Source: Deltaproteobacteria bacterium
GTDB taxonomy: Bacteria > Myxococcota > JADLHZ01
NCBI GenBank assembly: GCA_020848545.1
Contig: JADLHZ010000046.1
Span: 1-40,830, forward strand
Direction of reading: 5' to 3'
DNA length: 40,830 nt
Position 1 is the first letter of the stretch. Each line of letters opens with the position of its first letter. Below, one piece after another: positions 24,054-37,363 of the stretch. A program made the position numbers and the translations under genes. The notes under the pieces were generated by a model. That model searched no databases and was not told the origin of the DNA. It saw only the letters and a list, made by a program, of their open reading frames with translations.

Positions 24054-24074
24054 CCGAATAAGAACCGATGGATT

Positions 24075-24671
24075 TCAGCGGCCGCCGCTCGTCGTCACGG
24101 CGTGCTCGAACGCGCCGACGGTGGTCGCCCCATGAGCCGCGCCGATCGGAGATCCGCCGCGGACGATCCGTGCGACGACCGCCGCGTCGATCGACGCTTC
24201 GGCGAGCCCGAGCGCGGCGAGGCGAGGATGAAAGCCGTCGACCGCGCAGACGAGCGCTTCGTCGCAGCTGCCGTCGTGCAAGGCAGCCGCGGCGAGCGAG
24301 AGCAACGCCGCAGCCGCTGACGGTCCGCCGCACAAGGTGACGTTCGGGCCCATGGCACCCGTGGCGATCGCGATCTCGGCGGCGGCCGCAGACGGAACCG
24401 TCGCCGGAAACACGAGCGGGCTCACGCCGGCGATGCCGCGCGCGAGGAAGCCCTGCCAGTGATCGGCGTTCGCGGCGAAGGCGCCGTACTGCGAGACGAC
24501 CCAGATGCCGAGGCGCGGGCGCTCGGCGATCGGCTCAGCGAAGACGCGCTGCGCGGCCGCGAGCGCGAGCCGGCTCGGGCGGTCCAAGCGCCCCGGCCGC
24601 GCGTGCGCGACCTCCGGATCCGGCACGCCGTACACGTGACCGACGCGCGCCACCGACACCAGGTTGATCAC
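24075..24671 (-). CDS. Half-size ketosynthase-like partner (Ketoacyl-synt_2 type)
   Basis: A 198-residue protein resembling the N-terminal half of beta-ketoacyl synthases: RPSRLALAAAQRVFAEP, IWVVSQYGAFAANADHWQG, and ATGAMGPNVTLCGGPSAAAALL. In a true ketosynthase the active Cys follows GPN by about seven residues in TACAS; here that position is a Pro and the C-terminal half with the two His residues is absent. So it is probably a non-catalytic partner, like the small chain-length-factor proteins of aryl polyene clusters. A GTG at 24671 overlaps the ketosynthase stop (GTGA, 24668-24671), so I prefer it; another GTG at 24683 would add four residues. It is the last gene of the operon. Confidence 0.7.
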   Translation of the reverse strand: MINLVSVARVGHVYGVPDPEVAHARPGRLDRPSRLALAAAQRVFAEPIAERPRLGIWVVSQYGAFAANADHWQGFLARGIAGVSPLVFPATVPSAAAAEIAIATGAMGPNVTLCGGPSAAAALLSLAAAALHDGSCDEALVCAVDGFHPRLAALGLAEASIDAAVVARIVRGGSPIGAAHGATTVGAFEHAVTTSGGR

Positions 24672-25795
24672 GCGCGCTCCCACGCGACGGCCGCGTTCGA
24701 TCCGCCGAACGCCGCGGCGCTAGCGACCGCGCGCTTCGCACCGGCGAGTGAGCCGTTCAACGCGACGCCAGCTTCGAGATCGTCGTACGGCACGCGCAGC
24801 TCGACACCACGGCGCATCTGCTCGTTGGCGAGGATGAACGACATGAGCCCGCTCGCGCCCATCGCGTGGCCGATGAACGCCTTGTGCGCGAGCCAGCGTT
24901 TTCCGAGAAAGCCGAAGCGCGTGCCGATCGCGAGCTCCATCGCGTCGTTCGCCTGCGTGCCGGTGCCGTGCGCCACGTACGCGTCGATCGATTCCGAGCG
25001 CCAATCGCCGAGCGCGCGCTCGATCGCCACCGCGAGGCCGGCGCCGTCTTGGCGCGGCGCGGTCACGTGCTTGGCGTCGCCGCTGAGCGCCACCCCCTGC
25101 AGGCGCGCGAGCACCTTCGCGCCGCGCGCCGCCGCCGATGCTTCGCTCTCGAGCACCACCGCCGCGGCACCTTCGCCGAAGTTGAGGCCCTTGCGCGATC
25201 GCGAAAACGGCCGCGACTGCTCCGCGCTCGCGGCCTTCAAGACGACGAAGCCCGTGGTCGCGAACGCGCACGTGGCGTCCGAGCCGGCGGCGAGCGCGCA
25301 CTCGACCGCGCCGCTCTTCACCGCTGCGTACGCCGCGTGCAGCGCCGTCAGCGCAGACGTGCAGGCGGACGTGAAGACGAGCGGCGCCGGAAGATCGCGG
25401 GCGCGCGCGACGCGGAGCGCTGGCGCTTCGTAGAACGCACCGTGATCCGGCTCGCTCGGCGTCTCTCCACGCGTGATCGCGGAGAGCCAATCTTCGAAGC
25501 GCTGCATCTCGCCCGAGCACGTGCCGTAGTAGAAGCCGCGCGGCCGCGCTTTGCCGATCGCCGCCAACGCCTGCGCGACGGCGTCGCTCAGAAACGCCTC
25601 CGCCGGCCGCCGCTCGCGTCGCAGCGCTTCGAAAGACGGCGCGAGCTCCGGCACCGCCGCGACCATCGCCTTCGTGCCCGGCGCGATCTCGCGTTCGGCG
25701 GCGCACATCCGTCCGGCCGCGAGCCCGGTGATCGCGGCGTCGACACCGCTCCCGTAGGGGCTCACCAGCCCGACTCCGGTGACGACGACGTTCAT
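24668..25795 (-). CDS. Beta-ketoacyl synthase (KAS-II/FabF or aryl-polyene type)
   Basis: A 375-residue condensing enzyme of thiolase fold. The active Cys is C145 in FTSACTSALTAL. The two His are in AHGTGTQAND (about 276) and FIGHAMGASGLMSFI (about 310). It begins MNVVVTGVGLVSPYGSGVDA and ends AFGGSNAAVAWERA, both standard for FabF-like proteins. The full triad suggests a working C-C bond maker, extending an acyl chain with malonyl-ACP. The ATG overlaps the stop of the acyltransferase gene (ATGA, 25792-25795). A longer form back to 25846 is unlikely. No ACP, ketoreductase or dehydratase gene is in the window, so the chain must use proteins encoded elsewhere. Confidence 0.88.
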   Translation of the reverse strand: MNVVVTGVGLVSPYGSGVDAAITGLAAGRMCAAEREIAPGTKAMVAAVPELAPSFEALRRERRPAEAFLSDAVAQALAAIGKARPRGFYYGTCSGEMQRFEDWLSAITRGETPSEPDHGAFYEAPALRVARARDLPAPLVFTSACTSALTALHAAYAAVKSGAVECALAAGSDATCAFATTGFVVLKAASAEQSRPFSRSRKGLNFGEGAAAVVLESEASAAARGAKVLARLQGVALSGDAKHVTAPRQDGAGLAVAIERALGDWRSESIDAYVAHGTGTQANDAMELAIGTRFGFLGKRWLAHKAFIGHAMGASGLMSFILANEQMRRGVELRVPYDDLEAGVALNGSLAGAKRAVASAAAFGGSNAAVAWERA

Positions 25796-26748
25796 GAGGC
25801 GCGGCGGATCGACGGCTCGGCGGACGGCGCGTGGCTGTCTTCCCAAAAACTGAAGAGGTTGAACCAGTAGCTCGGCCTTGCGCGCGCCTCGGCTTCCAGG
25901 ATCTGCGCATAGCGGGCGGCGGCGGCGTGATCGTCGGCGGCGTCGATCGGCTCGAAGATCTCGAACTCGTAGCGCGCGCGGCCGAGGCGGCGGCAGAGCG
26001 TGGGCAAGACGACCGCGTTGCTCAGGCGCGCGAGCTGGTACGGCCCGATCGGAAACGGCGCCTCACGCCCCAAGAACGGCACCAGCGTCGACTGCGAGCC
26101 GGTGGCGCGATCGCCTTGCATGCACACGATCTCGTTGCGCCGCAGCGCCGCCAAGATCGCGAGCGACGAGAGCGGCGACGCGTTGACGGCGATGATCCGC
26201 GGCTGAATCGCGCCGCGCAGCGTGGCGAGGTATTGGCGCACGGACTCGACCTCGGTCTCGACCATCACCATGTTGACGACCGGCGGCGCGCCGGTCGGAT
26301 CGAGCCCGCGATGGTTCTGCGAGAGCAGCCAGGCGCCGAGCTCGAAGTTGCTCATGTGCGCCGTGAGCAACACGATCGGTCGTCCTTGCTTGCGGGCATT
26401 CGCCAAGTGCTCTTCGCCCTTCACGTCGAGCGAGAGGAAGTCGGCGCCTTTGACGAACGCGTACGTGCGCTCGTGCCAGCAGAGCGTGAAGGCCAAGAAC
26501 TGCTGATAGGTGTCCCACAAGCGCCGCACGTAGCCGACGCGCTTGCCGCGGAGCTGCGTGTAAAAGAGCTCGGAGCCCGCGCGGCGCGTCTTCAAGAACG
26601 GCACCGCGAACCACGTGCCGATCGCCAGCAGCGGAGGCCCGAAGCGCGGCCCGGTCATCAGCGAGAAGCGCGTGAACATGCGCACGCCGGTGAGCCCGCC
26701 CTCGTTGCGCCCGGACCATTTGACGGAAGGCTTCCCAGTGACGCGCAT
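25792..26748 (-). CDS. LpxL/HtrB-like lysophospholipid acyltransferase (LPLAT)
   Basis: A 318-residue membrane-associated acyltransferase. The catalytic HxxxxE motif is visible as LLTAHMSNFELGAW (about 127-140), followed by VCMQGDRATGSQSTLVPFLGREAPFP (the substrate block seen in lipid A acyltransferases of this family) and a YQLARLSNAVVLPTLCRR segment. An N-terminal hydrophobic helix (FGPPLLAIGTWFAVPFL) anchors it. It normally transfers an acyl chain from ACP to lipid A. Beside ketosynthase genes, family members can instead act on aryl polyenes. It is coupled to the ketosynthase by ATGA and follows the lipoprotein gene by 9 bases. Confidence 0.88.
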   Translation of the reverse strand: MRVTGKPSVKWSGRNEGGLTGVRMFTRFSLMTGPRFGPPLLAIGTWFAVPFLKTRRAGSELFYTQLRGKRVGYVRRLWDTYQQFLAFTLCWHERTYAFVKGADFLSLDVKGEEHLANARKQGRPIVLLTAHMSNFELGAWLLSQNHRGLDPTGAPPVVNMVMVETEVESVRQYLATLRGAIQPRIIAVNASPLSSLAILAALRRNEIVCMQGDRATGSQSTLVPFLGREAPFPIGPYQLARLSNAVVLPTLCRRLGRARYEFEIFEPIDAADDHAAAARYAQILEAEARARPSYWFNLFSFWEDSHAPSAEPSIRRAS

Positions 26749-26757
26749 GCAGATAGT

Positions 26758-27720
26758 CTAAGGAAAGCCGGGGATGCCGGCCGGAATTTCGGTCGGGATG
26801 CTCGTCGGGATGCCGGGGATGTTCGGAATGCCGCCGGGGAGGTTTACCGGCAGTTGGAAACCGGCGGGAAGCTGCAAGGTGCCTTTCACTTCGATGACGA
26901 AGCCTGTGAGCGCGCCGGCGATCGCCGCACCGATGAGCACGTTGTCGCTCGAGTCCAAGTTGAGGCGCGCCGTCGCCGCCAAGACCAAATAGAGGCCTTG
27001 CTGCGTCAGCTTGTCGGCCGGGATGGTGATCCGAAGCGGCGGGGCTTCGGTGATGAACTTGACGATCTCGGGCCCTTGCAGCGGCAGGCTATTGAAGACC
27101 ATGCCGACGGGCGACTCGTTCGTCGGGCCGAGCACCGTGACGATCGGATGATATTGAAATTCGTCGGTCGGCTCCGGGAACACGACGGTCAGATCGACGC
27201 CGGGATCGACAGCGCCGCTGAAGATGTCGAGCGTTGGGGTTTGCAGCGGCGGCTCGAAGACGATCATGCCGGGCTCGAGCGCGGGCGCCGCACGGATGCG
27301 TGTGATCGTGAACTCTTCGCCAACGCAGCCCTCGCCCTCGACGTTGTCGACGCAGGCGCGTAGGCCAAAGCGCCGATTCGGATCAGCGTCGTAGACGAGC
27401 TTCTCATTCTCGAGTGAGGTCGCAGTGTAGATGCCGGGCGCGAGCTCGGGGTTCTTCTCGGTCATCACCACCTGTTGGCCGCGGCCGAAGAATGAAGTGA
27501 AGGCGCCGCTCACCGGCACCGGCTCGAAGCCGCCCTTGGCGAAGAACGCGGTCGCGGTGCGCATGTTCAGCTCGGGCGAGCTCCTGAACGGCTCGACGTC
27601 GATGACCGGCGCGTCGAGCCAGGTCATCACGAGCACCTTGTCGGAGCGCAGTTTGAAGAGGAAGTTGCAGCTCGTCAGCGCGAAGGCTGCGACCGCGACG
27701 AAACAGGCACGAAGACCCAT
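26758..27720 (-). CDS. Lipoprotein with a Gly-Pro-Ile-rich tail
   Basis: A 320-residue lipoprotein with no named family. The signal ends at ALTSC with C18. The mature part is beta-rich and includes RRFGLRACVDNVEGEGC (two Cys that may pair), VVFPEPTDEF and PADKLTQQGLYLVLAATARL. The last about 28 residues are a collagen-like run of short PGIP/IPT units (LPGGIPNIPGIPTSIP then TEIPAGIPGFP). ATG 27720 is chosen over 27738 because the signal begins there. It heads the four-gene operon with LPLAT and ketosynthases, 9 bases before LPLAT. The function is unknown; the tail could be a spacer or a surface-exposed ligand. Confidence 0.75.
   Translation of the reverse strand: MGLRACFVAVAAFALTSCNFLFKLRSDKVLVMTWLDAPVIDVEPFRSSPELNMRTATAFFAKGGFEPVPVSGAFTSFFGRGQQVVMTEKNPELAPGIYTATSLENEKLVYDADPNRRFGLRACVDNVEGEGCVGEEFTITRIRAAPALEPGMIVFEPPLQTPTLDIFSGAVDPGVDLTVVFPEPTDEFQYHPIVTVLGPTNESPVGMVFNSLPLQGPEIVKFITEAPPLRITIPADKLTQQGLYLVLAATARLNLDSSDNVLIGAAIAGALTGFVIEVKGTLQLPAGFQLPVNLPGGIPNIPGIPTSIPTEIPAGIPGFP
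26761..26850. repeat. Imperfect GGGATG-type tandem units encoding the Gly-Pro-Ile tail
   Basis: On the plus strand the stretch contains GGGATGCC/GGGATGCT-like units repeated at irregular spacing (GGGGATGCC, CGGGATGCT, CGGGATGCC, GGGATGTTC). They encode the lipoprotein tail listed above on minus. Such units may change copy number by slippage. Confidence 0.5.
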
Positions 27721-36530: not shown

Positions 36531-36544
36531 GGAGACTTGCGGTG
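36531..36544 (+). promoter_or_regulatory. Shine-Dalgarno and GTG start of the thioesterase
   Basis: GGAG at 36531-36534 lies 7 bases before the GTG at 36542. No ATG start upstream fits, so this fixes an uncommon start codon. The 95-base space to the divergent phosphatase start (36446) must hold both promoters; no clear boxes were found. Confidence 0.6.
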
Positions 36545-37363
36545 CACGAAGAGACTCAACCTCGCTATCCATTGCTGCTGCCGCGCCACGCGTTCTCGCA
36601 GCGCGAGGTCTGCCGCGCCGGCGACTTGTGGCGGGCATGCCAGGACATCGCCGTCGACGCGTCAACGCGCGGCGGCTGGCCCCCGTCTCGGTACAAGGCC
36701 GAGAAAAACGCGTACCTCATGCGCTCGATGGTCTGCGTGCATCGCGCCGAGACGACGCACGGCGATCAGCTCTCGACGCAGACCTGGATCTCGAAGACGA
36801 AGCGCGAGCTCGTGTCGATGCGCGAGGTGCGGATCGCCGTCGACGACGGCAAGGGCGGCCACACGCCGATCTGCGCCGCGACCCAAGAGTGGGTGCACGT
36901 GTCGGCCGATCTGAAATTGCTGCGCATGCCGCGCTCGCTGCTCGACGCGTTCCACGTGCTGGCGGGATCGCGCACGATCACCTTTCCAGACTACTCACCG
37001 GTGACTTCGGAGCGCGACCACGTATTCCGCTTCGACTGCTGGCAAACGTGGACCGATCCGCTGGGCCACGTGAACCACCCGGTCTACGTCGACTGGTGCG
37101 ACGAAGCCTTTGGCCGCGCGATCGTCGAGCGGGGGTGGGATCCGGCGCGCGCCGTGCCGATCGCGGAGAGCGTGCTGTATCGAAAGCCGGTCGGGCCGGG
37201 CATGGCGGTCGTCGTCACCAGCCGCGTGCTCGGCACCCACGGCGGCGGCGTCGTCATGAGCCACGCGATCGCGGACGAGGCCGGGGAGATCTTCGCCGAG
37301 GCAATGACGGCGAGGCGGGTGATCGAGGTCTCCGGAGATGCGCTGGCGGCGGGGCTGAGCTAG
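36542..37363 (+). CDS. Acyl-ACP thioesterase, FatA/FatB-like double hot-dog
   Basis: A 273-residue thioesterase made of two hot-dog domains. The first (about 10-130) has FSQREVCRAGDLWRACQDIAV and KRELVSMREVRIAV. The second (about 160-265) carries TDPLGHVNHPVYVDWCDEAF, matching the catalytic Asn/His region of plant and bacterial FatA/FatB enzymes (N-x-H and nearby Cys). It would release fatty acids from ACP, setting chain length. A GTG start with GGAG is used. The stop overlaps that of the PilZ gene as CTAG (37360-37363). It may serve envelope lipid synthesis; a link to the ketosynthase operon 10 kb away is only speculative. Confidence 0.85.
   Translation: MHEETQPRYPLLLPRHAFSQREVCRAGDLWRACQDIAVDASTRGGWPPSRYKAEKNAYLMRSMVCVHRAETTHGDQLSTQTWISKTKRELVSMREVRIAVDDGKGGHTPICAATQEWVHVSADLKLLRMPRSLLDAFHVLAGSRTITFPDYSPVTSERDHVFRFDCWQTWTDPLGHVNHPVYVDWCDEAFGRAIVERGWDPARAVPIAESVLYRKPVGPGMAVVVTSRVLGTHGGGVVMSHAIADEAGEIFAEAMTARRVIEVSGDALAAGLS

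Follow-up and report, generated by a model that had tools for sequence, protein, structure and literature searches.

The window analysed here is a stretch of 40,830 nucleotides (contig JADLHZ010000046.1, assembly GCA_020848545.1) from a Deltaproteobacteria bacterium placed by GTDB in the Myxococcota. Four ORFs occupy positions 24075–27720 of its minus strand. In the direction of transcription, they encode a lipoprotein with an LTSC lipobox and a Gly-Pro-Ile-rich tail (26758..27720), an LPLAT protein of 318 aa (25792..26748), a ketosynthase (KS) of 375 aa (24668..25795) and a half-size KS-like protein of 198 aa (24075..24671). The TAG of the lipoprotein gene and the ATG of the LPLAT gene are separated by 9 bases, the LPLAT and KS genes share an ATGA overlap (25792–25795), and the KS and half-size genes share a GTGA overlap (24668–24671). 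A high-GC coding pattern is present in these ORFs. The stop codon of the half-size gene lies 21 bases (24054–24074) from that of a convergent gene coding for a TolC-type outer-membrane efflux protein. None of the scanned window proteins was identified as an ACP, ketoreductase or dehydratase, so that on this point, as on the four-gene layout and its junctions, the initial annotation of the locus proved accurate. An acyl-ACP-thioesterase-like double hotdog protein (PF13279, PF20791) is encoded on the plus strand at 36542–37363, 9 kb from the unit.

Bioinformatics analysis revealed that both ketoacyl-synthase halves are present in the KS (PF00109, E-value 7.7e-17; PF02801, E-value 3.8e-15), and that the protein matches ApeO (E-value 4.2e-27) and ApeR (E-value 5.9e-23) of the aryl polyene (APE) system. 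Based on alignment and position, the active-site set is kept as first described, with the nucleophile Cys145 (25361..25363, minus strand) and the catalytic residues His276 of HGTGT (24968..24970, minus strand) and His310 of GHAMGA (24866..24868, minus strand), together with Lys305. When 195 genomes of the phylum were searched at an E-value of 1e-40, the window KS alone was returned; its relatives are found only at 29–43% identity, and none is a clear orthologue of the LPLAT, KS and half-size trio.

The half-size protein matches PF00109 (E-value 7.6e-9) at profile positions 78–207 only, which is part of the N-terminal half, and scores 24.7 bits against PF13723, for which the curated cut-off is 25. 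Only the first thiolase half is present, and the nucleophile column holds Gly116 (24324..24326, minus strand) where the KS has its cysteine; the nearby Cys114 stands two residues before the nucleophile slot. The alignment thus upholds the earlier description of a partner lacking both the cysteine and the C-terminal half, and it also answers the question, raised with that description, of an active cysteine in the half-size protein. A cysteine at the Cys114 position is found in the CLFs of genomes G017 and G053 as well, and is absent from that of G040. Over its length, the half-size protein aligns with Cys-less partners encoded directly after a KS in related clusters (E-values of 1.6e-15 for G053, 3.7e-15 for G017, 1.1e-14 for G133, 2.6e-13 for G040 and 5.7e-9 for locus L122), and no close orthologue was found in 84,980 species genomes. 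A model of the protein built with AlphaFold2 from 18 sequences (mean pLDDT 55.7, with good values confined to residues 28–145) matches residues 1–250 of KSs as well as of the ishigamide CLF 6kxd_B (VIA-align Z 11.7, rmsd 4.1 Å over 178 residues), matches that stem partly from the KS sequences in the alignment used for modelling. KS alignment A1, in which the tail of the half-size protein was paired with KS C-termini, was set aside, and A2 was used.

Based on the PF00109 match, the CLF alignments and the predicted core, the half-size protein is a putative CLF-type partner of the KS. Its length, presented earlier as an odd feature, has a precedent in the ApeC CLFs, which are likewise half-size and have one thiolase fold (PMC8358021). 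The pair resembles ApeO-ApeC (PDB 6QSP; E. coli CFT073, Xenorhabdus, Acinetobacter) in combining a full KS that holds Cys-His-His with a Cys-less partner of about half size and one thiolase fold, and differs in that the partner gene adjoins its KS and the other members of the set are not encoded in cis. The open frame, the GTGA overlap with the KS gene and the coding GC pattern argue against a decaying, truncated KS at a vestigial locus, a reading suggested by the presence of the N-terminal half only and by the high sequence divergence; moreover, no C-terminal remnant is seen, the next gene ends 21 bases on, and half-size Cys-less partners recur in ApeC (240 aa in E. coli), in L122 (244 aa) and in the second pairs of G027 and G133 (271 and 274 aa). 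Decay is therefore regarded as very improbable.

Another pair in which a KS is joined by a small, Cys-less protein with a KS fold is AmcF-AmcG, the KS and cyclization factor of cispentacin. The window KS scores 129.8 bits against AmcF and the half-size protein 16.3 bits against AmcG, and true AmcG is common in the phylum (26 of the 195 genomes over the cut-off), which could suggest an AmcG-like factor and a pair making a five-membered ring of the cispentacin or coronafacic type. However, both scores are far under the curated NCBIfam cut-offs (325 bits for AmcF and 80 bits for AmcG), the window protein is not among the AmcG matches of the genome search at an E-value of 0.01, neither an adjacent ACP nor an AmcE or AmcH partner is found, and the window lacks the cispentacin gene set. 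In addition, G007 and G027 hold true AmcG and APE-like pairs at different loci. A cyclization factor is thus hardly to be expected here.

The LPLAT protein belongs to PF03279 (E-value 9.2e-24) and contains the catalytic His131 of an HX4E motif (AHMSNFE; 26356..26358, minus strand). It aligns to residues 250–550 of ApeJ, the C-terminal acyltransferase domain, and ends in an ApeJ-type motif, WFNLFSFW (25843..25866, minus strand; WFNFFDFW in ApeJ), of the form WFNxFxFW. Unlike ApeJ, it is free-standing and unfused to GT2. A GT2 protein encoded on contig C108 of the same genome aligns to ApeJ residues 9–240 and is devoid of an acyltransferase domain. Judging from these alignments, an ApeJ-type protein is divided between two loci, with its GT2 half encoded on C108 and its LPLAT half in the window. 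The best relatives of the LPLAT within the phylum are mostly GT2-LPLAT fusions, and some are free-standing. The two other PF03279 proteins of the genome (C12, C144) are split from it by a long branch with support of 99/98. An LpxL-type lipid A acyltransferase was also considered and rejected, as the LPLAT scores 49.9 bits against a cut-off of 297.8 for LpxL/LpxP and 26.2 against 336 for MsbB.

The C108 locus is an APE-like cluster on one strand. It encodes an ApeO-like KS paired with a Cys-less CLF of its own, a ketoreductase and two hotdog dehydratases, and further a thioesterase, GT2, an AAT-family acyltransferase, LolA and an MMPL transporter. Comparison with Ape proteins gave E-values of 3.8e-52 for KS/ApeO, 3.8e-33 for ketoreductase/ApeQ, 7.3e-28 for GT2/ApeJ, 1.3e-14 for thioesterase/ApeK, 1.6e-8 for LolA/ApeL and 6.4e-8 for MMPL/ApeM, and the APE-like parts are further supported by FabA-like, KR, 4HBT, GT2 and LolA Pfam domains. 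An ApeE-like ACP (E-value 2.6e-21) is encoded on C144. Hence, ACP, ketoreductase, dehydratase, GT2, LolA and MMPL, which belong to an APE biosynthetic gene cluster and are absent from the window, are found in trans on C108 and C144. Three distinct contigs are involved (that of the window, C108 and C144), and both ends of the 40.8-kb window are 13 kb or more away from the unit, so that a contig-edge artefact of the C108 cluster does not by itself account for it. The APE-type character of the KS, its half-size partner and the LPLAT had been recognised correctly in the initial annotation; the minimal, self-contained set that it proposed does not agree with the APE-like cluster on C108, the APE-type ACP on C144 and the full clusters of relatives.

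The ApeE-like ACP adjoins a halogenase/oxidoreductase-type flavin enzyme (L089:7211-8500) that resembles CmlS-type halogenases, and a flavin enzyme also occurs in the APE-like clusters of G027, G007, G133 and G167. The sole ammonia lyase found in the genome (C108:140269) lies away from the APE-like cluster. Considered as an aromatic-starter enzyme, it stands with secE/nusG-like genes and is probably an ordinary HutH.

In relatives of the same phylum, the nearest counterparts of the LPLAT, KS and half-size proteins share one APE/flexirubin-like cluster (G027, G007, G133 and G017). Unlike the window, these clusters hold all parts together: in G027, G007 and G133, both KS-CLF pairs and a GT2-LPLAT fusion are accompanied by ACP, ketoreductase, a flavin enzyme and an ammonia lyase, and in G017, KS-CLF genes and GT2-LPLAT by ACP, ketoreductase and dehydratase. 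The neighbourhood comparison therefore speaks against the orphan status first given to the unit, as the occurrence of these genes within complete APE-like clusters is the arrangement that had been named at the outset as contrary to it. The same free-standing trio was found in no genome of the collections searched.

Phylogenetic analysis of the KS, the CLF and the concatenated sequences grouped the window pair with the second pair of these myxobacterial-type clusters and apart from ApeO, the C108 pair and the first pairs, a further difference from ApeO-ApeC. Support values for this placement were 74/91 for KS, 87/89 and 85/84 for CLF, and 92/91 for the concatenated tree, and the AU test disfavoured both a grouping of the window pair with C108 (p-AU 0.039) and one with ApeO/ApeC (p-AU 0.022). 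The trees point with moderate confidence to a second-pair identity, the placement being short of firm because the branches are long. No characterised member of this second KS-CLF lineage was found.

Taken together, these data favor, as the fairly probable reading, a dispersed APE-like pathway of at least three loci working in trans, to which the window contributes a second KS-CLF pair and a detached acyltransferase. The KS and the half-size protein would assemble into a KS-CLF heterodimer like those of reducing (polyene) type II PKSs, in which the KS would carry out condensations with Cys145, His276 and His310, while the half-size protein, having no active site, would contribute the remaining half of the dimer interface and close the chain pocket. 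Malonyl and growing chains would be carried on an ACP encoded elsewhere, most likely the ApeE-like ACP of C144, and the ketoreductase and dehydratases of C108 would process the beta-keto groups to give a polyene-like acyl chain. The window LPLAT may then transfer this chain onto a lipid acceptor that the C108 GT2 has glycosylated, after which LolA and MMPL of C108 may carry the product outward. The order proposed for E. coli APE is core synthesis, anchoring by ApeD and ApeJ, and export by ApeM with ApeL/ApeN (PMC8253772). We infer the heterodimer, the cooperation between loci, the product and the starter unit alike. The unusual envelope acyl product suggested earlier may be retained insofar as an envelope acyl lipid is the probable product; the part of that suggestion which derived it from a minimal set is not retained, as the other parts are encoded on C108 and C144.

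Several observations count against a dispersed pathway: identity to the relatives is low (about 31–37%) with long branches, no searched genome shares the free-standing trio, LPLAT proteins of the window type also occur outside KS clusters (L068, L071, L077), and neither an aromatic-starter ammonia lyase nor an AMP ligase linked to the cluster was identified. The trio might instead constitute an independent small pathway that borrows ACP, ketoreductase and dehydratase and whose own acyl chain, unrelated to the C108 product, is put on an envelope lipid by the LPLAT. Its genes are physically separate and tightly coupled, its KS-CLF lineage differs from that of the C108 pair, and AmcF-AmcG provides a precedent for a KS with a half-size partner using borrowed fatty acid synthase parts (PMC10698177). 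Nevertheless, independence is rather unlikely, since the same lineage occurs in relatives within complete APE-like clusters beside an ApeO-like pair, and the ApeJ acyltransferase half missing from C108 is exactly what the window carries. Within the dispersed APE-like pathway, it is tentatively conceivable that the second pair with its own acyltransferase makes a second kind of acyl chain; the final envelope lipid would then bear two different polyketide-derived tails. The locus represents an unusual layout and not a new system, the mechanism being otherwise ordinary. It illustrates that the genes of an APE-like type II PKS pathway are not necessarily gathered in one cluster, and that a stand-alone KS-CLF pair with the acyltransferase half of ApeJ would tend to be labelled orphan by cluster-finding methods; it also draws attention to the phylum's second KS-CLF lineage, in which the partners are half-size.

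The convergent neighbour is an ordinary TetR/HlyD/RND/OEP operon, and no terminator was found between the convergent genes in a simple scan. The functional link to efflux put forward in the initial annotation is not substantiated: it consists of the 21-base convergent end, and APE clusters use an MMPL-type exporter, which is here located on C108. As regards the lipoprotein, no family was found in Pfam, NCBIfam or PHROGs. Its gene may be co-transcribed with those for LPLAT, KS and the half-size protein, given the same direction and the 9-base junction, and this much of its proposed place in the operon stands; its membership in the unit is doubtful, as is a functional link, considering that it follows other minus-strand lipoprotein-like genes and that its distant relatives have no adjacent KS or LPLAT genes. 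The role of a dedicated carrier was rejected for the same protein, which has no family and whose distant relatives in six other genomes lack KS or LPLAT alongside; these relatives adjoin genes resembling dapF or asnS by sequence. The window segment 26758-34143 contains a run of four minus-strand genes for secreted or lipoprotein-like products, including a 751-aa protein without a Pfam family and an Lcl_C protein.

With regard to fatty acid synthesis, the window KS is under the FabF cut-off (TIGR03150, 154.7 bits versus 493.75), as is every other protein of its genome, the best match reaching 254.8 bits, which might suggest that the window KS replaces FabF in the ordinary pathway. Such a replacement has little to recommend it: the FabF score of the window KS is below those of the C102 and C108 KSs, it has a Cys-less partner, and a canonical FabF is lacking because the genome encodes a type I fatty acid synthase on C125. 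On C36, at about 113.9–117.2 kb (L093), fabG and acpP are followed directly by rpiB-glyA-nrdR-like genes, with no fabF next to acpP, where one might be expected. The type I synthase (C125:102421-112386, minus strand; L134:1-9966) is a 3,321-aa protein of the fungal/actinobacterial kind with a Fas1-like helical domain and AT, MaoC, FAS-alpha ACP and KS domains. It is possible that it replaces type II elongation in this Myxococcota-like bacterium; such synthases occur in only 3 of the 195 genomes of the phylum.
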